From Phlegmacium glaucopus (taxonomy: Eukaryota; Basidiomycota; Agaricomycetes; Agaricales; Cortinariaceae): a stretch of DNA of 64,000 bases. A program made the translations under genes and the position numbers. Numbering within the stretch: the first letter of the stretch is position 1; every line of letters begins with the position of its first letter. The notes under the pieces are model-generated. The model had not been told where the DNA came from. It was given only the letters and a program-made list of their open reading frames with translations, and did not search any database. The stretch spans positions 214,147 through 278,146 of the forward strand of contig MU130626.1 of assembly GCA_015039465.1 (NCBI GenBank), in the 5' to 3' direction. This document shows positions 29,610 to 58,682 of this stretch, piece after piece.

Positions 29610-31357
29610 CTCAAAGGGTGTTTAGTGGGTGAGATGACCGTTTCAATGGGTTACAGCGTCATGCCCTCCTGAGGGGAGAAAAAAGTTAAGCTTGAGAGTC
29701 AGTAGAATGGTTATAAGCAAACACAAAGGGGTATTACAAACGTGCGTGCCACTTATATGGACCAGAGCATCTGGAACTTGGCTGAACCTTATAGTCAACG
29801 CAGTTGTGAGAATCCTTCTGTAATATCCGCAGGATTTACGGGATATCCCTGACAGCCGATCTCGATTCTCTAGAGATCTACCAGGATCTGCCTCAGTGGT
29901 CCAGTGGCTGTAGATGACATCAGAATAATGTATCGCAAGTTAAATATTGTGAATCCCCCTGGACAAATAATATATACAACTTTTACTATAAACAGTGAAG
30001 ATCGCTGCACTGAGGTCGTTTTCGAGGGGAATAGATCTTAGTGAGTATGTTTATCTTCAGATGTCAACGTGCACCCAAAAATGCAAATGTTCGGCATACC
30101 CAGTACCGGTTCTTGCGGGTTTCCTAAATTTAGAACAGATGACAATCAACCAATTATTAGGTTCTTTGCACATGTTTGATCTGGGAGAACTATCAGCAAG
30201 TGGCAGGTACCTGGTTATTGTCAGCGACAAGTTGGACAGACAAGCTGAGGACTTGAGGCATGTCGTGTAAGTGCCTTTCCGGCTCCGAAGCTATGAATCC
30301 GTGGATGCTCAATCCGCAGGTCTCGGTGTAACATTCAACTCACTTGAGGATATGATTGAGGAGAAAAGATAAACCAACTTTGCAGACTTTTTCTTCTAGG
30401 GGAGCTAGCTTGTATGCCTGCGCCATCATCAAGACTTAAGTCGTTGGCCGAGTTGGTGAACATGGTGAACATACCATTGTCGACTGACCATTTATTTTAT
30501 CTAAACGTAGCAATAGATCTCTCGTCTCTCAAGTGGAAATCTGGTTAGCAGATTTTCAGTAAATAGTAGTCAAGAGAAGACTTTAGTTTAGAAATGTATG
30601 GGAGGCAGGATGGCATCGGACCGACTCGAACTAAGTTTCGAATATCAAAGCGCAGCACCAAGCGCTCATCGGATGACATTTGGATTAGAACAAAGAGAGG
30701 TTATGCGCGGGTCATCGATGTGGCCTTCGTGGAGTCAAGGTCATATGATCATCAAAAACAGGCATCTTCACTGTCAAATGTAATTTGGAAATGCCAGTGG
30801 TCAAGACCCAATCAAGACCCGTCAAACCCAATTGTAATGTAGTACGGTCAAAGGGCCACTTACGATGAGATTAAAAACTTATGGCATGTCAGTAACTTGT
30901 TACGTACTAATAGTACCTGGGAAAACAAAAGGGATTTTCGCCTATTTACAGAGTATAAGGAGGTATAAGGCCATCATCGGGAGGAGACAGAGGAGACCCG
31001 CCTGAATTCTTGTATATTCAGCAAGTTCCGTAGACCCATGTGAAATTCGACGGTCCATCTCTTTTTCTACTTTGGAGATGTGTTGGTGCATTGTACGACA
31101 GAGTGTCGGTGTGAAAATCCTGTTGTCTCCTAGATCTGGCCTCCACATAGACAACCGACCCTAGGTCACAGCCTGAGTGTATATCTTTAGCGTTTAGGCT
31201 GCATCGAATTAGTTCTTTTATAGTTAGGCAGGCAATAATGGGCTTCTAAGTCCTGAGCTAGATTGATTTTTACATAGCCATTCAGTTTTCAAAAATACAT
31301 TTTTGGGCAAAAGCCCTGATGCACTGCCATTGGCCCAAAAAGGTGAAAAATATCAAT
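29610..31357. other. intergenic, no supported gene
   Basis: Short open frames at 29995-30270 and 30594-30842 lack recognisable motifs; the first begins with GTG and has no ATG. Nothing else is supported. Confidence 0.45.
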
Positions 31358-33319
31358 TTAGAGAAATCCTCTCCATCGAATTTCAATCCAACGAAACGGA
31401 AAGTACAGCAAACCGCTGACCGCAAAGGCAACCTCAAACCCGATATCCCCTGTCCTACGAGCAATGGGACCTGTAAACCATACTTGGCTCATAGAAGGAA
31501 TCACCACACCAAATGACAATACACCCGCAGCCACCGCAGCGATTCCGGACGGAAGGCGCTTGGGAACGTTCCATGCCGTTACGTCATATTGGGATGGATC
31601 ATTTTTGCGGAAGTAGAGATGTTCTATCATAATGATGGCGATGTATGCAGAGGACCAGTATCCGACTAATCCAAGAAAGTTGATTAGAGTATCATAAAAT
31701 CGATGGGCACCAACAATCGAGATTGGGACAACGCTGTTAAATCGGCGAACATCAATCAAAACCCCTTCAACACCATTGGTATATGATGAAATAATACCAC
31801 CCACATAGCAGTTGCTACCACCGAGAATACGTATCGTGGTACTATGGCCAAAATAGGCATAAACGCTTGGAGATTGATTGATACAGAATAAAATGTAGCA
31901 GCAATGTTTCCGGCGACAGAGAGGCTCAGCAGGACCATAAGAAATTTGCCGAAATTGCCTACGGGGTGAAGCATAGCTTCAAACAGCCCACCTACGTTGC
32001 CGCCGGTATATCCTTGCTCCCAAACAGGGACGGAGGGTACCGCAACAGCGACGGCGGCTCCAAGACATTGGAGTGATACCTGAGAAGTAGAGAAGGTTGG
32101 GGTAAGGAGTAGAAACAAAGTCGATACATACGATGGGTAGTAAAAGTCCTGCATAGGAAGATAGAAAGATTTTCCAACTGACAAATCTTTGAAATTAAGT
32201 TTTAAATAGCTTCCCAAGAATTTCGCACCTTGAGACATTTGGATGATAATAGCTTGTGAAGTCGGAACTGAGGCCCGAATAGGTAATAGAAAATCCAGCC
32301 AACGTTGAAGCAAAGTTTAAAATAGCAGAGGCTGTAGCTGATACGGCTGGCGGGGGGTTGGATAGATGCTTTCCACCGGCGCCAGAAACGATGACAAATG
32401 TAATTAGAACAGGGATCCATGATATCCGTTCATACCTGTAACATTCAATGAACATCAATTATCTCATAAGAACAGGGTTGTGCATTACCAATTAAGAACT
32501 TTAAATCCGCAAAACGATACCAAAAGGGATATCACTGCAATCACGACGATCCCAACGCTGCCGCAGGGGATGTGTAAGACTTTCGATACCGCACTAGCAT
32601 AGGAGCAGGAAGGACGTACCTCCAGCTCAGGTTTCCATTGGCGACACTTGCCAACGCTTGTCCTCCCACAATGCAATTCAAAATTGAAAACCCGATCATG
32701 ACTGATAAATTCATAATACAGATTAAAATGACTCCGTAATATCTTTAGGCATGATTTCAGTAAATGAATTCGCGAATAACGTATTACTAACCCAAAGGTA
32801 TATCGAGATATTATCATTTGCCTCATTCCCAGCTTGGGTCCCCAGGTTGCGCTATCATGATCATTTAAGTATATGGGCGGTGCATCTCATGAGTCCAAAA
32901 CTTACAAGTATGCTGGGAATGCGCAACAAAGCAGGTTAAAGAAAAGGATCGGGAGGCATGTATCTCGAAGTCCCAATCCGAATACCACTGGGCCCAATGT
33001 ACCGGCAGAGAATCTGAAGCTACTCAACCAAAGAGGCCTCAAAGCAAGAAACCCTTCGTACTCACGAGAGAATATTGACGTTCATGGAAAACCATATAAA
33101 AAAAATCTTGCTGTACGGTTTATCAGCGCGCTCATCCAAGGGAACGGGAGAAATGCCTCAAAAGAAAGTGATCTTAACAAGTATAGTGAGGTAAGGGAAG
33201 CTCTTACCTCTCGATTCAACACCCCATGTCAATAATTTCCTGGACACCCGTTCCCAACGAAGACGATTGGAATGAACAGTTGTTGCATTTTCCTTCTCTA
33301 GATCTTTTTCTGGGACCAT
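31358..33319 (-). CDS. NCS1 permease (purine-cytosine permease-type), copy A
   Basis: Predicted plasma-membrane symporter for purine bases or cytosine, of the fungal FCY2-like NCS1 family. Ten exons splice without a stop. Start: MVPEKDLEKENATTVHSN. Landmarks: SRKLLTWGVESRG, ISPVPLDERADKPYSK, FSAGTLGPVVFGLGLRD, SILNCIVGGQALASVANG, VGIVVIAVISLLVSFCG, WIPVLITFVIV, SLQCLGAAVAVAVPSVP, GGLFEAMLHPVGNFGKF, AHRFYDTLINFLGLVGYW, TGPIARRTGDIGFEVAF and a C-terminus ending IRWRGFL. The intron after LSWS uses the AG of CGGCAG, not the nearer GAAAG. It is one of three near-identical paralogues (36462-38416 and 56720-58682). Substrate assignment is by family only. Confidence 0.88.
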
Positions 33320-35820: not shown

Positions 35821-36461
35821 CAGAATTATCCGCATTTCGGTTTTCCTCCACTACTGGACATCGCCTGCGCTTCTACAGGCGGCACCTTTTCTGCTTTCGT
35901 GCCCACAGTGATAAGCCTCTCCCGAACCTCATATAGCAACTTCGATACAAACAAACTCATGGCCCTCTTGACCCCCATCATCACTTCCAGAAGAAGAAAC
36001 TTAGTCTTCAACCGTAATCGCCACATTGCTCAATTTTCCTGTAAAGAAAGGTAAAGTAGTAGTGTCATCTCTTGTAGAGCAGCACACCGATCCCATAATT
36101 CGCGTTCTTTGTCGATAGAGCTTCGATGTACGGTCGTGACGTGTGGTCGTTTGGTTCTCGATTGTCAGTTATCAGTTTCGTCCAGAAATCTTTGCTTTCG
36201 TTCACAAGGATTGGATCTAGTAGGACGGTGCGTCAACTTTCTTCTTTTCCTCTTTCGGATTGTCAGGCTTTTCATAGCAGGAGCATAACCCTTCCGATGC
36301 CAGCAAGACCGAAAGGAAAGATGGGAGGTCGATGCTTATCCTTGCGTCTGATCTTGTCCTATATATTTGCTAGTATTATGATCAGACGTCCTGCAGTATT
36401 TTATCTTATCCTTAGATGAGTCTTCGTGTTTCCTCATCGTGGAGTCGGCTGGAAAACCAAT
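35821..36461. other. intergenic, no supported gene
   Basis: 3' flank of NCS1 copy B. Unlike copies A and C, this flank does not share the ACATAG.CATTCAGTTTTC sequence that follows the other two copies. Confidence 0.5.
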
Positions 36462-38416
36462 CTAAAGGAATCCACTCCATCGAATTTCAATCCAACGGAA
36501 CGGAAAGTACAGCAAACCGCTAACCACAAAGGCAACCTCAAACCCAATATCTCCTGTACTACGAGCAATGGGGCCTGTAAACCATACTTGGCTCATAGAA
36601 GGAATCACCACACCAAAACACAATACACCCGCAGCCACCGCAGCGATACCGGACGGAAGGCGCTTGGGAATGTTCCATACTGTTACGTCATATAGGGAGG
36701 GATCGTTTTTGCGGAAGTGGAGATGTTCTATCATAGTGATGGCGGTATAGGCAGAGGCCCAGTATCCGACTAATCCAAGAAAGTTGGTCAGGGTATCATA
36801 AAATCGGTGGGCACCAACAATCGAGATTGGCACAATGCTGTTAAATCGGCGAGCATCAATCAAAAACTCTTCAACACTATTGGTATAGGAAAAAATACCA
36901 CCTACATAGCAGTTGCTACCACCGAGAGTACGTATCGTGGTACTATGGCCAAAATAGGCATGACCGCTTGGAGATTGAGTGACACCGAATAAAAGCTAAC
37001 AGCAATGTTTGCGGCAACAGAGAGGCTCAGCAGGACCATAAGAAATTTGCCGAAATTGCCTACGGGGCGAAGCATAGCTTCAAGCAGCCCACCTACGTTG
37101 CCGCCGGTATATCCTTGCTCCCAAACAGGGACGGAAGGTGCTGCAACAACGACGGCGGCTCCGAGACATTGGAGTGATACCTGAAAAGTAGAGAAGGTTG
37201 GGGTAAGGAGTAGAAACAAAAGTTGATACATACGATGGATAGTGAAAGTCCTGCATAGGCAGATAGAAAGATTTTCCAACTAGCGAATCTTTAAAAGTTA
37301 AATCTTAAGTAGCTTCCCAATAATTTCGCACCTTGAGACATTTGGATGATAATAGCTTGAGTAATCCGAACTGATGGTTGAACAGGTAATAGCAAATCCA
37401 GCCAATGTTGAAGCAAAATTTAAAATAGTAGAGGCCGTAGCTGGTACGGCTGGCGGGGGGTTGGATAGATGTTTTCCACCGACGACACAAACGATGATGA
37501 ATGTAATTATGACAGGAATACATGATATCCGTTCATACCTGTAACATTCATTGAACATCACTTATCTCATAACATGTTGAGCATTACCAATTAAGAACTT
37601 TAAATCCGCAAAACGATACTAGCAGGGATATTACTGCAATCACGACGATCCCAACGCTGGCGCAGGGGATGTGTAAGACTTTCGATACCACACTAGCATA
37701 GGAGCAGGAAGGACATACCTCCAGCTCAGATTTCCATTGGCGACACTTGCTAATGCTTGTCCTCCCACAATGCAGGTCACAATTGAAAATCCGACTATGG
37801 TGGATAAATTCATAATACAAATTAAAATGACTCCATAATATCTTTGGGCATGATTTCAGTAAATGAATTCACGAACAACGCATTGCTAACCCAAAGGAAT
37901 ATCGAGATATTATCATTTGCCTCATTCCCAGCTTGGGTCCCCAGGTTGCGCTGTCATGATCATTTAGGTATATAAGCGGTGCACCTCATGAGTCCAATAC
38001 TTACAAATATGCTGGGAATGCACAACAAAGCAGGTTAAAGAAAAGGATCGGAAGGCATGTATCTCGAAGTCCCAATCCGAATACCACTGGGCCCAATGTC
38101 CCGGAAGAGAACCTGAAGCTGCTCAACCAAAGAGGCTCGAACCAAAGAACCCTTCGTACTCACGAGAGAATATTGAAGTTCATGGAGAACCATATGAAAA
38201 ATGTCTTGCTGTACGGTTTATCAACGCGCTCATCCGAAGGAACGGGAGCAATGCCTGAAAGAAAGTGATTTTAACAAGTGTAGTGAGGCAGGTAAAGCTC
38301 CTACCTCTCGATTCAACACCCAATGTCAATAATTTCCTGGACACCCGTTCCCAACGAAGACGATTGGAATGAATAGTTGTTACATTTTCGCTCTCTAGAT
38401 TTTTTTCTAGGACCAT
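36462..38416 (-). CDS. NCS1 permease (purine-cytosine permease-type), copy B
   Basis: Same exon layout as copy A, all ten exons open. Start: MVLEKNLESENVTTIHSN. Differences from copy A include APVPSDERVDKPYSKTFF, FSSGTLGPVV, WAS in place of WSS before AY, CSTISSDYSSYY for YSGLSSDFTSYY, LSVAANIAVSFYSVSLN for LSVAGNIAATFYSVSIN, and an end reading WSGFL. These are scattered substitutions typical of a functional paralogue. Its final intron is shorter (GTAGGT start) but phase-consistent. Copy A lies 3.1 kb away in the same orientation. Confidence 0.86.
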
Positions 38417-45757: not shown

Positions 45758-47600
45758 TAGTGATGCCAAAGTTTGGTTCAGTTTGGTTCTTCAACCATTT
45801 TTGAAGAACCGAGAACTGAACTGAAAGGTCCTCTGCTGAACTGAACCAGAACCAGAACCAGAACCGATAGAACTGGTTCTGTCGGTTCAGTCTGGTTCTA
45901 GGACCAGTTTGAACTGTTGAACCGATAAAAAAACATTTAAATTATATTATTTTGGTATGGTAGGGTATGAGATACTCTATAGCATTAATAAAATACAAAA
46001 AATAACCCCCTATGAGAGGGGATGCTGTTGTTGGGTGTTGTCATCATAGTGTACTAAAACATACCTGTCAGGAATTACAGTGATGGTTCCAAAAACGCAG
46101 GTCAGGCTGTCAACTTGAAGATAAATGAATCACAAAGTATTTTATGAGTGACAGCCGGCGTACCTTGGCCCATGATGTTGCTTATGACACTCCTAAGTTG
46201 TCATCCGATCATTCATCATCCATCAATTCCATCCATTAGTTGTCTGTTCATTTGTTGTGCATCCATTCATTGTTTGTTTGTTTGTGGTCATTTGCTCATT
46301 GTTTGTTCATCATTGTTCATTCATTGTTGTCATGTATTTGTCATTGTTGCTTGTTTGTTGTTGTTTGTTTGTCATTGTTGTTTGGTGGCATCATTTGTTG
46401 GTTGCCATTCGTCTGTTGTAGTTTAGATTAGAGTTAAGTTAGAGTTATAAAACATACCTCTGGGTAGTGCTCATCATCATGATTCATTCATTGTTGTCCG
46501 TCCATGTTTATTCATCCATTCAGTCATTTGTCATCCGTTCAGCCATTCATCATCCATTGACTTGGAGTTGTTGGTTGTCTGTTGAGTTGTTCAAATTTGT
46601 CATCCATTGAGTCATTCATTGTCTGTTCATTTATTCATTCTTATCCATTTGTTGTCATGTATTTGTCCAGGTCTAAATGGGCGGTGGATGGGTCCAAATG
46701 GCGGTTGTTGTCGTTATTGTTCATCTGCCAGTGTCATAGCTTTAGTACATTAGAAATAAATTATTCATTTGCTCATTGGTGTTGTTTTCTCATTGGTGTT
46801 GTTTGTTTTTCGACCTTGTTTGTTCACCTGGGACTGCGTTGTTCATTCGCCTGTCATCATCGTCCATCCGTTCATTCGCACATTCATTTGTTCATTATTG
46901 CTGATTGTCATCATTTGTTGTTGGGCTAATTGATTCATTATTGATATTTGCTCATTGTTGTCGTTTGTTCATTATCATATGTTCATTGTCATTTGTTGTC
47001 GTCCATTTGGCATCTTTGTTTGTCATCAGTTGCCTGTTGTAGTTTACATTAGAAATAAGTCAAAACCTAAAAAAGTACCTTGGAAGGGGTAGTGCCATCC
47101 ATGTCCGTTATTGTTATGCTAACTGTCATTGTGATTATTGTTGTTGTGCTTATCATTGTCATCCCTGTGTGATTTCATAGTCATATTGTATTAATTAAAT
47201 CAAGAAACTTACCAAAATAACTTCCCTAGTAGGGAGTTGTTGGTGTTAGCATCATTAATTGTTCACATTGCATTGTTGTGTTTTGTTGATAGCTGAGAGT
47301 CAATGAGATTTTTAAAACTCCAACTCCCAAAATATGGGTTCTGGTGCTTGTCTGGTGCCTAACAATATTTTATATATTATAAATTCAATTCTGTGTGGAA
47401 AAATTAGAAAAAAATATTGACGGAAAGTTCGGTTCAAACCGGTTCCAACCCAGTTCTCGAAAATTTAGAAATATGAGAACCGAGAACCAAACCAACAGCC
47501 CAAAATCCCTGGACTGAACTGAACTGAACCCGAACCAACAGTTCAGTTCTTTCAGTTCTCAGTTCTTGCATCAGTTCAGAACCGAACTTTGGCATCACTA
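45758..47600. mobile_element. hAT-like TIR element, copy 1 (empty version)
   Basis: The ends are inverted: TAGTGATGCCAAAGTTTGG at 45758 and the reverse complement of TAGTGATGCCAAAGTTCGG ending at 47600. Subterminal regions are packed with GGTTC/GAACC words that can pair with each other. The 1.8-kb interior is mostly degenerate CATTGTTG-rich minisatellite (46190-47180) with no transposase. TAGTG...CACTA ends resemble hAT elements, but no clear 8-bp TSD is seen. At 47140/47141 it reads GATTATTG-TTGTTGTGC, the empty site for the insert found in copy 2. Confidence 0.8.
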
Positions 47601-53328: not shown

Positions 53329-53691
53329 ATACCCTACCCAAAACCCATGATAATCCCTACTGATCAACACAGTTCAGGTTTAAACAACAAACTACCAGCC
53401 CCATTAAGGAAACCCATGCCACACAGCAAATCTGCAGTCCGTCAAGCCTATCACACAAAACTCAAACTTCTAGCTAAAGAAGTCTGGACCAAATCACCAA
53501 GATATGACAAAACAAACCAATTAGATCCCTCACTCCCCTCCAACAAATTTGCAAAGCACACACACCACATGAAACGAAGTCAGGCCAGTTTGTTATTCCA
53601 ATTAAGATCAGGCCACGTACCGCTCAACACGCATCTCCATCAGATCCAAAAGATAGCATCACCGATGTGCGCAAAATGCCACAGTCTTAGA
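53329..53691 (+). pseudogene. LINE (non-LTR retrotransposon) C-terminal fragment, part 1
   Basis: The frame reads PSNKFAKHTHHMKRSQASL, then LRSGHVPLNTHLHQI and MCAKCHS. This is the end of a fungal LINE ORF with the C-x2-C half of a zinc motif. It is interrupted at 53692 by a TIR element, and the 5' part is missing. The second half resumes at 55807. Confidence 0.75.
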
Positions 53692-54145
53692 TAGTGTTAC
53701 CAAAGTTTGGTTCGGTTCGGTTCTTCAACCTTTTTTGAAGAACCGAGAACCGAACCGAAGGGTTCCTCATTGAACTGAACCGGAACCAGAACCAGAACCG
53801 ATAGTATCTGTGTGTTGAAAAATTGTGTAGTTTTCTACTCCATACAAACTTGGAATACATAAGACATACTGCCGATGACTTACAGTTAGATGACCTTATC
53901 TATATTCAACATTTAAAGGACCTTTGAGCTGTTGTCACTTACTTGCCTGCAGTTTACTTGTTCCAAAAAAAAAAGATAAATTTATTGATGATATTGTTGT
54001 TGTCGTAGGTACGATCCTCGTATCATCTGATGATCATCGAACAATTTAGTTCGTTTAATGTTATATTAAATTAAATTTCCAAAAATAGTAGCCAAGTTGT
54101 CAAGCTTGGCCAAGATCTTGGCCTGTCTTGGCTGTCTTGGCCAAG

Positions 54146-54928
54146 NNNNNNNNNNNNNNNNNNNNNNNNNNNNNNNNNNNNNNNNNNNNNNNNNNNNNNN
54201 NNNNNNNNNNNNNNNNNNNNNNNNNNNNNNNNNNNNNNNNNNNNNNNNNNNNNNNNNNNNNNNNNNNNNNNNNNNNNNNNNNNNNNNNNNNNNNNNNNNN
54301 NNNNNNNNNNNNNNNNNNNNNNNNNNNNNNNNNNNNNNNNNNNNNNNNNNNNNNNNNNNNNNNNNNNNNNNNNNNNNNNNNNNNNNNNNNNNNNNNNNNN
54401 NNNNNNNNNNNNNNNNNNNNNNNNNNNNNNNNNNNNNNNNNNNNNNNNNNNNNNNNNNNNNNNNNNNNNNNNNNNNNNNNNNNNNNNNNNNNNNNNNNNN
54501 NNNNNNNNNNNNNNNNNNNNNNNNNNNNNNNNNNNNNNNNNNNNNNNNNNNNNNNNNNNNNNNNNNNNNNNNNNNNNNNNNNNNNNNNNNNNNNNNNNNN
54601 NNNNNNNNNNNNNNNNNNNNNNNNNNNNNNNNNNNNNNNNNNNNNNNNNNNNNNNNNNNNNNNNNNNNNNNNNNNNNNNNNNNNNNNNNNNNNNNNNNNN
54701 NNNNNNNNNNNNNNNNNNNNNNNNNNNNNNNNNNNNNNNNNNNNNNNNNNNNNNNNNNNNNNNNNNNNNNNNNNNNNNNNNNNNNNNNNNNNNNNNNNNN
54801 NNNNNNNNNNNNNNNNNNNNNNNNNNNNNNNNNNNNNNNNNNNNNNNNNNNNNNNNNNNNNNNNNNNNNNNNNNNNNNNNNNNNNNNNNNNNNNNNNNNN
54901 NNNNNNNNNNNNNNNNNNNNNNNNNNNN
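54146..54928. other. assembly gap (783 N)
   Basis: All bases unknown. Open frames spanning this region are artefacts of N translation. The gap starts right after palindromic CTTGGCCAAG words, which suggests that a repeat or hairpin blocked the assembly. Confidence 0.98.
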
Positions 54929-54996
54929 AAAAAATTCCTTGGAAGGGGTAGTGTCCATGTCCGTTATCGTTGTGCTAATTCTTGTTGTGATTATTG

Positions 54997-55328
54997 AGAT
55001 GTTCCTCAGGACCAATGCCGCTATCGAAGTGTCAGTACTAAGAATTTCAAGTTCTGATTAAAATGACAATATATACCTGAGCATCAGAACTTGTGGGGAT
55101 CCAAATGCTCCTGCGCACAGGATTATTTCACATCGGGCACGAACCTTCCGATCAGGCGACTCTTTTTTAGTCGATCGAAGAAGAACTGAACGGGCCCTCA
55201 AAGCTTGATATTCACCTTCAGTTTGGATCTTGAAAGCGGTTGCATTTGTACAGATGTGTGGAGTAGCCTTGCGTTCATTGACAACATTCCGTGGTGAGAA
55301 GGCGCTAAACGTCGAGCTCCGATGTCCG
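54997..55328 (-). pseudogene. captured GMC oxidoreductase gene fragment
   Basis: On the minus strand the fragment encodes STFSAFSPRNVV, a beta-strand-rich middle section and EIILCAGAFGSPQVLML. It then continues across a 55-60 nt GT-AG intron to SGIGPEEHL. Together these form the second GMC signature (GSP-x2-LM-x-SG-G-GP) of the FAD-dependent glucose-methanol-choline oxidoreductases (aryl-alcohol oxidase and related). Only about 95 codons are present, with neither the FAD-binding N-terminus nor the catalytic His region. Both edges coincide exactly with the empty site of the sister transposon copy. Confidence 0.85.
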
Positions 55329-55806
55329 TTGTTGTGCTTATCGTTGTCATCCCTGTGTGATTTCATAGTTATATTGTATTAATTAAATCAAGAAACTCAC
55401 CAAAAATAACTTCCCTAGTGGGGAGTTGTTGGTGTTAGCATCGTTATCGCTGGTGTTGTTCGCGTTGCGTTGTTGTGACAGTTGTGTTTTGTTGATAGCT
55501 GAGAGTCAATGAGATTTTTAAAACTCCGACTCCCAAAATATGGGTTCTGGCGCTTGTCTGGCGCCTAACAATATTTTATAGATTTTAAACTCAATTCTGC
55601 ACGGAAAAATTAGAAAAAAATATTGACAGAAAGTTCGGTTCGAACCGGTTCGAACCCGGTTCTCAGAAATTTAGAAATGTGAGAACCGAGAACCGAACCG
55701 ACAGCCCAAAATCCCTGGACTGAACTGAACTGAACCTGAACCGACGGTTCGGTTCTTTCGGTTCTCGGTTCTTGCGTCGGTTCGGAACCGAACTTTGGCA
55801 TCACTA

Positions 55807-56268
55807 GCCCGGCCCACAGACACAATGAAACGGTGATGCATTTCCTGATACAGTGTCCAGCCCATAACAACATGAGAAACAGACTATTTCAAGAAGCAGG
55901 AAGAGATGCAAGAAATATCAATAAACTTCTATCGATCCCAGCCCTTTTCCCACATCTATTCAAGTTTATAGGACACAGTGGGTGATTCGACAACACTCAG
56001 GAAGCAATCATCACAGATGCACAACATTAGTCAACCGTCATCATATCAACTTAATCTATATTACATCACCACATCATCTTATTGTTACGATCATTATTTC
56101 ATGCGGATACCCCACTTTGAGTCATGCTACGCATCTCTCATAGCAGTTGATCAGTTTACGGTCATCATGACCAAGTAGCACACCCCAGTAATTACATTTA
56201 CAGTATATGTCTGGCTTGCCACAAAGGACAATAAACAAAGAAGAAAAAAAAAAAAGAAAAAAAAACCC
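55807..56268 (+). pseudogene. LINE C-terminal fragment, part 2, with 3' A-rich tail
   Basis: The frame resumes with ETVMHFLIQCPAHNNM, LFPHLFKFIGHSG and a stop near 55984. The H-x4-C completes the CCHC-type motif begun in part 1. A ~250-bp 3' region follows, ending in AATAAACAAAG and an interrupted oligo-A run (56231-56266) typical of a LINE 3' end. Confidence 0.75.
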
Positions 56269-56719
56269 TACTGAGAGGAAAATAAGTTACAAGTTCACAC
56301 CTATCTAATGGGGATGCAATTGCCCTGAGCATGTAGAAAGGCCTAATGTGTTGAGTTAGATAGGATCATACCATCCCTGTTCCTGTTTTTGATGGGAGTC
56401 ACAGGTGGGACTGTGGTGGTGGCTGTGCATACACACCACTACCACTACCACCACTACCACTACCACCACTACCACCACTACCACCACCCACAATGATGTC
56501 ACCCACCACCCTTTCAAGATCAAACAGCTAAGCCACCACATTGCACATGTATTCCTTATTACCTAGAGTAATTCTACATAGCTATTCAGTTTTCAGTCAA
56601 AAGACAGTCCTAATGACTGCCACCGGGCCAGTGTTGCTTTTCTGTGCATTTATATTTTTAGATTAACATAAGGTTTATGATCAGCATGATAATTAGGTGA
56701 CGAGGGGTGGAAAATAAAT
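56269..56719. other. intergenic with (ACC)n microsatellite
   Basis: 56436-56486 is a (CACTAC/CACCAC)n microsatellite. From about 56574 the sequence matches the 3' flank of NCS1 copy A (31272-31340). Confidence 0.6.
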
Positions 56720-58682
56720 CTAGCAAAATCCTCTCCATCGAATTTCAATCCAACGGAATGGAAAATACAGCAAACCGCTGACCACAAAGGCGACCTCAAA
56801 CCCAATATCTCCTGTCCTACGAGCAATGGGGCCTGTAAACCATACTTGGCTCATAGAAGGAATTATCACACCAAATGACAATACACCCGCAGCCACCGCA
56901 GCGATTCCAGATGGAAGGCGCCTGGGAACATTCCATGCTGTTATGTCATATAGGAAGGGATCGTTTTTGCGGAAGTAGAGATGTTCTATCATAATGATGG
57001 CGATGTAGGCAGAGACCCAGTATCCGACTAATCCAAGAAAGTTGGTTATGGTATCATAACCTCGGTGGGCACCAACAATTGAGATTGGCACAACGCTGTT
57101 AAATCGGCAAACATCGATCAAAACCCCTCCAACACGATTGGTATATGATGAAACAATGCCACCTACATAGCAGTTGCTACCACCGAGAATACGTATCGTG
57201 GTACTATGGCCAAAATAGGCATGAACGCTTGGAGGTTGATTGACGCAGAATAAAATGTAGCAGCAATGTTTCCGGCAACAGAGAGGCTCAGCAGAACCAT
57301 AAGAAATTTGCCGAAATTGCCTACGGGGCGAAGCATGGCTTCAAGCAGCCCACCTAAATTGCCGCCGGTATATCCTTGCTCCCATATAGGGACAGAGGGT
57401 GCTGCAACAGCGGCAGCGGCTCCGAGACATTGGAGTGATACCTGAGAAGTAGAGAAGGTTAGGGTAAGGAGTGGAAACAAAGTTGATACATACGATGGGT
57501 AGTAAAAGCCCTGCATAGGCAGATAGAAAGATTTTCCAACTAGCGAATCTTTGAAATTTTATTAAATAGCTTCCCAAGAATTTCGCACCTTGAGACATTT
57601 GGATGATAATAGCTTGTGAAATCAGAACTGAGGCCCGAATAGGGAATAGCAAATCCAGCCAATGTTGAAGCAAATTTTAAAATAGTGGGGGCAGTAGCTG
57701 GTACGGCTGGCGGCGGGTTGGATAGATGTTTTCCACCGACGACAGCAACGATGACGAATGTAATTAGGACAGGAATCCAGGATATCTGTCCATACCTGTA
57801 ACATTCATCGAACTTCAGTTGTCTCATAACAACATGTTGATTGAGTATTACCAATTAAGAACTGGAAATCCGCAAAACGATACCAGAAGGGATATTACTG
57901 CAATCACGACTATCCCAACGCTGGCGCAGGGGATGTGTAAGACTTTCGATACCATACCAGGAATAGGAGCAGGAAGGACGTACCTCCAGCTCAGGTTTCC
58001 ATTGGCGACACTTGCCAACGCTTGTCCTCCCACAATGCAGTTCAAAATTGAAAATCCGACCATGGCGGATAAATTCATAATACAAATTAAAATGACTCCG
58101 TAATATCTTTGGGCATGATTTCAGTAAATGAATTCGCGAACAACGTATTACTAACCCAAAGGTATATCGAGATATTATCATTTGCCTCATTCCTAGCTTG
58201 GGTCCCCAGGTTGCGCTGTCATGATCGTTTAGGTATATATAAGCGTTGGACCTCATGAGTCCAAAACTTACAAGTATGCTGGGAATGCACAACAAAGTAG
58301 GTTAAAGAAAAGGATCGGAAGGCATGTATCCCGAAGTCCCAATCCGAATACCACTGGGCCCAATGTCCCAGCAGAGAACCTGAAGCCGCTCAACCAAAGA
58401 AGCTCGAAGCAAGAACCCTTCGTACTCACGAGAGAATATTGACGTCCATGGAGAACCACATGAAAAACGTCTTGCTGTACGGTTTATCCTCGCGCTCATC
58501 CAAAGGAACGGGAGAAATGCCTCAAATAGAGTGATCTTAACAAGTGTAGTGAGGTAAATAAAGCTCTTACCTCTCGATTCAAGACCCAATGTCAGTAATT
58601 TCCTGGACATCCGTTCCCAACGAGGATGATTGGAATGAACAATCGTCACATTTTCTCTCCGTAGATTCTTTTCTAGGACCAT
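56720..58682 (-). CDS. NCS1 permease (purine-cytosine permease-type), copy C
   Basis: Same ten-exon structure as copies A and B with all junctions conserved. Start: MVLEKNLRRENVTIVHSN. Differences include HRGYDTITNFLGLVGYW instead of HRFYDTL, AAAAVAAPSVPIWEQGYTGGNLGG, and DEREDKPYSKTFFMWFSMDVNILS. Its C-terminus ends WRGFC. No disabling change is visible. It lies 18 kb from copy B, beyond NLR2 and the TE field, but its 5' and 3' flanks are closest to those of copy A. Confidence 0.85.

Follow-up and report, generated by a model that had tools for sequence, protein, structure and literature searches.

A short non-autonomous hAT transposon of the mushroom Phlegmacium glaucopus carries an intron-containing piece of a host GMC oxidoreductase gene

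We analysed a 64,000-nucleotide stretch of the Phlegmacium glaucopus genome (hereafter the window) and searched the assembly of this one genome (60.5 Mb in 259 contigs) for related sequences. A non-autonomous hAT transposon, Pack-TIR or 'Pack-hAT'-like in kind, has with high probability taken up 332 bp of genomic sequence copied from an intact GMC oxidoreductase gene and then spread. The way in which transposons with terminal inverted repeats (TIRs) take up host genes is disputed, with tandem insertion, gap repair and fork switching under discussion. The present case offers an unusually clear view: a single assembly contains the donor, unfilled sister copies and several independent filled insertions, so that the borders of the insert can be placed at single-base resolution.

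Two copies of one TIR element lie in the window, as the earlier note on this DNA had recognised, and the ends of both are TAGTG...CACTA TIRs. Copy 2 (locus L050) is the filled element and extends over 53692..55806 on the plus strand, with a nominal length of 2115 bp that includes an assembly gap of 783 N (54146..54928). Its left TIR occupies 53692..53705 (plus strand, TAGTGTTACCAAAG) and its right TIR 55793..55806 (minus strand, CTTTGGCATCACTA). On the plus strand, the left inner arm runs up to the insertion point (54929..54995) and matches 47070-47140 of copy 1 and 1258-1326 of the unfilled copy L057. The right arm (55328..55806, plus strand) is 100% identical to those of L051 and L052 and has at least 43 matching stretches in the genome (best 40 of 239 candidates scored). 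Copy 1 (L063; 45758..47600, plus strand, 1843 bp) is an unfilled element of a sister subfamily and aligns over its full length with L064 (87.7%), which bears the TSD TTTCTTAT. In copy 1, the place that corresponds to the insertion point (47139..47140, plus strand) is unbroken and reads GATTATT|GTTGTTGTGC. The arms of the two copies align with 84.5% identity (47070-47140 with 54929-54996) and 88.7% identity (47140-47600 with 55328-55806); they are continuous in copy 1 and 332 bp apart in copy 2.

Given its assembly gap and missing TSD, window copy 2 is a poor specimen. Its flanks read GTCTTAGA and GCCCGGCC and thus show no TSD; copy 1 also lacks one. An unusual target was considered as the reason for the missing TSD of copy 2: when its flanks (53542-53691 and 55807-55956) are joined, relatives elsewhere in the genome are contiguous over the site, with the nearest full-length ones falling short of the query by ~20 bp. 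By eye, these flanks resemble the C-terminus of a LINE-type protein (C..C...ET..HF...C). Part of the interior of copy 2 is replaced (53805..54145, plus strand, 341 bp): no counterpart of this stretch was found in the other element copies, its first ~258 bp match only themselves, and its last ~80 bp recur at four places. It may represent a nested insertion or a third capture; the latter candidate was dropped when the genome search yielded no donor. With no TSD, the odd 341-bp stretch and the gap, copy 2 could have been rearranged. Outside the element, a stretch of ~297 bp occurs three times in the window (56705-57000, 31342-31638 and 36447-36742) with ~91% identity.

The captured GMC oxidoreductase fragment occupies 54996..55327 on the minus strand. 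In terms of the donor gene, it extends from exon 4 (~251 nt) through the entire intron 4 into the beginning of exon 5. Translated on the minus strand, it reads ...RCEIILCAGAFGSPQVLML | SGIGPEEHL across a 56-nt GT-AG intron (55021..55076, minus strand), and the boundaries of this intron equal those of intron 4 in the donor gene model. The earlier note had described just such a minus-strand GMC stretch with a GT-AG intron; its insert length of 332 bp is correct, and its position (54997-55328) is one base off at an ambiguous G. The match to the donor stops at 55327, and at 55328 the donor has a T and the element a G.

A genome query with the 332 bp and short flanks gave seven matches, corresponding to five element copies (one of them split in two) and a single donor; the fragment was found nowhere else in this search. 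At the donor locus, on contig C26, only the inner part of the flanked query matches. The window insert is 98.5% identical to C26:145505-145838 (334-bp BLAST match), and the best copy (L052) has three differences from the donor in 332 positions. A donor in the same genome had been anticipated by the earlier note, and the C26 gene is indeed intact: our splice model has seven exons and encodes 597 aa without a stop, with the Pfam domains GMC_oxred_N and GMC_oxred_C. The closest protein match is a GMC oxidoreductase of Phlegmacium glaucopus (96% identity, 100% query coverage), and the gene has relatives in many fungi. Since the remaining GMC matches listed for this genome reach at most 64% identity, we identify the C26 gene as the donor. 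Because this gene is intact, the DNA must have been copied rather than cut. The intron in the insert excludes a spliced transcript as the source, and the proposal that genomic DNA and not cDNA had been taken up is thus borne out by a donor with the same exons and intron. A chance match is excluded by the 98.5% identity to part of a complete GMC gene and by the same position of the fragment in four further element copies.

Five copies of the element are filled, L050 (window copy 2), L051, L052, L053 and L054+L056, all at a single insertion point. When compared with the unfilled copy L057, all five filled copies are broken at its position 1326 on the right and four of the five on the left; with the best 40 of 412 candidates scored, family counts are minimum values. 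The left match of L051 ends at 826, ahead of a gap, and the left side of its insert lies in or beyond that gap. Searching with a 35-base pattern (up to 3 mismatches) located the unfilled site at nine places, against one for the reversed-pattern control. Besides these nine, L059 is an unfilled copy in which a small deletion affects the site. The comparison of empty and filled sites on which the earlier note relied holds beyond the window, with five filled copies and nine unfilled sites that are kept unbroken.

Both arms of the filled copies run on as in the unfilled ones, and no base is lost or repeated, save one ambiguous G. Donor and element have 3 bp (TTG) in common at the left junction (GATTATT|GAGATG) and none at the right one (GATGTCC|GTTGTTG). 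In simulations, microhomology of at least 3 bp arises with a probability of 0.056 at a given junction and of 0.11 at one or both of the two. The 3-bp match was therefore dropped as proof of template switching, with which it is compatible. We looked for a TSD of the insert itself, mobile ends and poly-A at the junctions and saw none, nor did we see inner TIRs at the filled junctions.

In a right-arm tree of 14 copies (5 filled, 9 unfilled), the filled copies form one side of a branch with support of 92/89, which falls below the star threshold of the tool, and the nine unfilled rows supply all remaining branches. From these sequences, a single capture with subsequent spread is the simplest reading. 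Some copies have been interrupted by other DNA. L054/L056 (C188:158181-182907) is split inside the GMC fragment by ~24.7 kb of other DNA, with 7 bp common to both edges. L059 contains nested insertions of ~0.38 kb and ~0.19 kb; both were considered as further captures and set aside, the former being solo-LTR-like with a direct repeat (TSD) CTACT. In L062, a nested insertion of 2.27 kb (L062:2210-4489) shows a direct repeat of 10 bp, GTTGGTGTTA, and contains ORFs, one of which has a zinc-knuckle-like CFQCGTLGHRKQEC motif.

Perfect 8-bp TSDs flank eight of the ten elements that have both ends within one fetched locus, a set that consists of fetched copies and is not a random sample; the two without a TSD are the window copies. 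L060 (contig end), L066 (right end missing), and L061 and L065 (no left end with matching 8 bp in the fetched sequence) are outside this count. The split copy L054/L056 also has a TSD (CGTTGATG...CGTTGATG). Four filled copies have perfect TSDs that are all different (CTTTGTAC, GCATTTAT, ACCTGCAG and CGTTGATG), and the filled element has therefore landed at no fewer than four sites. Two of the filled copies, L052 and L053, are complete, free of gaps and flanked by perfect TSDs, and carry the same insert.

The TIRs of the element have the form TAGTG[T/A]T[A/G]CC...CACTA. This degenerate pattern occurs at 71 + 88 = 159 places in the genome, compared with 3 + 4 = 7 for the reversed pattern, and the exact form TAGTGATGCC occurs 70 times (control 5). 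A Dimer_Tnp_hAT domain, reading outwards, lies 297-317 bp inside four of the 70 exact TIRs (on C9, C23, C230 and C237), where ~0.03 such pairs would be expected by chance (hand arithmetic). On C9, a matching right end is found 5.6 kb from the left TIR (C9:416939-422540). These four hAT elements, located here by their coordinates, are candidates for the autonomous partner. The genome has 116 hAT domain matches, most of which do not adjoin this TIR form.

The complete filled copy L052 (2167 bp) has ten stop-to-stop ORFs of at least 60 aa. None of the ten matches a transposase family (Pfam, E up to 0.01), the sole match being GMC_oxred_N, and we therefore regard the element as non-autonomous. No hAT transposase was picked out by eye among the ORFs of the loci around other copies. 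TIRs of hAT elements are short and of the TAGNG/CAGNG type, MULEs have TSDs of 9-11 bp, and Helitrons have neither TIRs nor TSDs. The element is thus a short non-autonomous hAT transposon and not a MULE: its TSD of 8 bp does not fit a Pack-MULE, and its TIRs and TSDs do not fit a Helitron. Of the Pack-MULE or Pack-TIR behaviour suggested by the earlier note, the Pack-TIR part stands. Host gene DNA lies between the TIRs of a transposed element, the donor genes are still present in the genome and the element is non-autonomous, all of which are features of Pack-TIR (Pack-TYPE) elements.

A second captured fragment is present in L052 (L052:2315-2511). Positions 741-773 and 777-937 of this element copy correspond to two separate parts of an ORF on contig C106 (donor L076, C106:36800-39800) that encodes 853 aa and has no Pfam match. 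The two pieces are 91% identical over 33 bp and 92.6% identical over 162 bp, have the same orientation and skip 467 bp of the gene; since the skipped 467 bp lie inside the ORF, they are not an intron in that reading. Ten hits of the fragment were found in the genome: eight in element copies, one in the C106 gene itself and one in a relative on C123 (74%). It was not found in the fetched loci L061, L063 (copy 1), L064, L065 and L066, and in window copy 2 the corresponding region falls in the 783-N gap. Both captured stretches are spanned by the alignment with a protein relative, P0121 (44%), which shows that the pieces are part of the gene and moved from it to the element. In the seven copies compared (the gap-cut L051 was left out), the larger piece is 85.9-92.6% identical to the gene. 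The C106 capture is therefore older than the GMC capture, for which L052 has three differences in 332 bp. The C106 pieces were probably taken up in a similar way to the GMC fragment, and two captures in one subfamily suggest that such uptake is not a one-off.

The captured GMC copies also show signs of decay. At sites 63, 265 and 301, all of the six copy stretches that cover them differ from the donor in the same way. None of the three is at a CpG, and they arose either after the capture or in the donor since. All of the other ten distinct changed sites, private to one copy or common to two, are C>T or G>A at CpG, compared with a background of 38 CpG sites among the 154 C/G sites of the fragment (P 3e-7 for 10/10). 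The changes sit in L050, L051, L053, L054 and L056, and the donor gene retains these CpG sites. This pattern suggests decay of putatively methylated transposon copies. L050 and L054 share two CpG changes, in conflict with the right-arm tree, and these would be due to recurrent mutation or conversion.

Three other origins of the GMC segment can be weighed against a capture inside the element. The segment might be an ancestral part of the element that was lost by copy 1 and others, a reading that the earlier note had set against its own. Beyond the comparison of two copies nothing speaks for it; there are nine unfilled sites and five filled copies, the filled copies form one group of the tree and the unfilled ones all its other branches, and the segment stems from the middle of a complete gene whose relatives occur in many fungi. 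We therefore give an ancestral segment hardly any credence. The same small weight is given to the possibility that a mobile element or retrocopy of independent origin inserted into the hAT element. Nested insertions do occur in sister copies, but those of L059 (CTACT) and L062 (10 bp) have direct repeats, whereas the GMC segment, as the reading of the earlier note requires, has neither a TSD nor mobile ends of its own; it also keeps its intron and lacks poly-A, and outside the element copies the genome search listed it only at the donor. Copy 2 with its 783 N and its odd 341-bp stretch might raise the suspicion of an assembly artefact, yet the same insert is present in the gap-free, complete copies L052 and L053 with perfect TSDs, which leaves this explanation with a next to negligible probability.

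A different route to the same structure would be the insertion of two element copies on either side of a gene piece and their joint mobilisation, so that the piece ends up between the copies. Such tandem insertion has been proposed as a capture mechanism for all plant superfamilies including hAT (PMC8903248). As we understand it, the model predicts that the insert is bordered by remnants of inner TIRs, or that element sequence is duplicated or missing there. The arms of the filled copies run on exactly as those of the unfilled ones, one ambiguous G apart, and since no element sequence is lost or repeated at the junctions and no inner TIRs were seen, tandem insertion is disfavoured; we consider it very unlikely here.

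This leaves templated repair at a break or a fork switch within the element, with transposition to follow, and the data fit both alike. Gap filling and FoSTeST are published capture routes (PMC8277862), and for multicopy animal Pack-TIRs Tan et al. preferred fork switching over gap filling (PMC8277862). In Phlegmacium, a break or stalled fork may have occurred within the element where it is rich in TTG. Synthesis from the broken end would then have continued on the GMC gene as template, with a TTG match at one junction and none at the other, and rejoining would have left the element sequence complete. A hAT transposase supplied from another locus presumably carried the filled element to further sites. 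Earlier, this subfamily would have taken up two pieces of the C106 host gene, probably in similar fashion, and later its copies appear to have decayed by C-to-T changes at CpG, as one would expect for methylated transposons.

Pack-TIR capture is already known in plants, animals and ascomycetes. The nearest fungal parallel is the hAT transduplication of histone H3 described for Pyrenophora tritici-repentis and Pseudocercospora fijiensis (PMC3538342, PMC6710886), in which host gene sequence likewise lies between the TIRs of a hAT element and has been amplified by transposition; a TSD of 8 bp is stated for the P. fijiensis element (PMC3538342, PMC6710886). From the accounts given there, the captured H3 was inferred to derive from a transcript or retrocopy without introns, whereas the Phlegmacium fragment keeps its intron. 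Many of the H3 elements are described as keeping the hAT domain, and in P. tritici-repentis there is a form of 5.6 kb whose transposase gene is full-length; the Phlegmacium element, in contrast, is short, non-autonomous and basidiomycete, and has unfilled copies in the same genome. The view of the earlier note that such capture is little documented in mushrooms agrees with our limited literature search (titles and abstract openings), which brought up no basidiomycete case of gene capture by a hAT element, but must be read beside these published ascomycete cases.

Among the animal Pack-TIRs, 208 of 370 are reported as hAT (PMC8277862). They resemble the present case in the genomic filler inside a TIR element, the short microhomology at breakpoints and the repeated transposition of multicopy cases with distinct TSDs (PMC8277862). 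Compared with the animal elements as described there, ours stands out as a mushroom case with two successive captures in one subfamily and with filled and unfilled sister copies compared in one genome. The plant Pack-TYPE, Pack-MULE and Pack-hAT elements are likewise non-autonomous TIR elements with captured coding DNA (PMC8903248), and the Phlegmacium junctions do not fit the tandem-insertion model proposed for plants in that account (PMC8903248). Gene-carrying DNA transposons have also been described in a mushroom, namely the Helitrons of Pleurotus ostreatus with captured genes (PMC4289320); these differ in being rolling-circle elements, and their captured genes are described as being of unknown origin (PMC4289320).

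As a tentative generalisation, agaric mushrooms might host a recurrent Pack-hAT system, in which a hAT lineage rich in TTG/TTC repeats repeatedly takes genomic pieces of host genes by template switching and spreads them. Such a system might be a basidiomycete source of exon shuffling distinct from the intronless captures of ascomycetes. The junctions reported here argue against the tandem-insertion model, and the element extends hAT gene capture to a mushroom and, by virtue of the intron, to genomic DNA in fungi.
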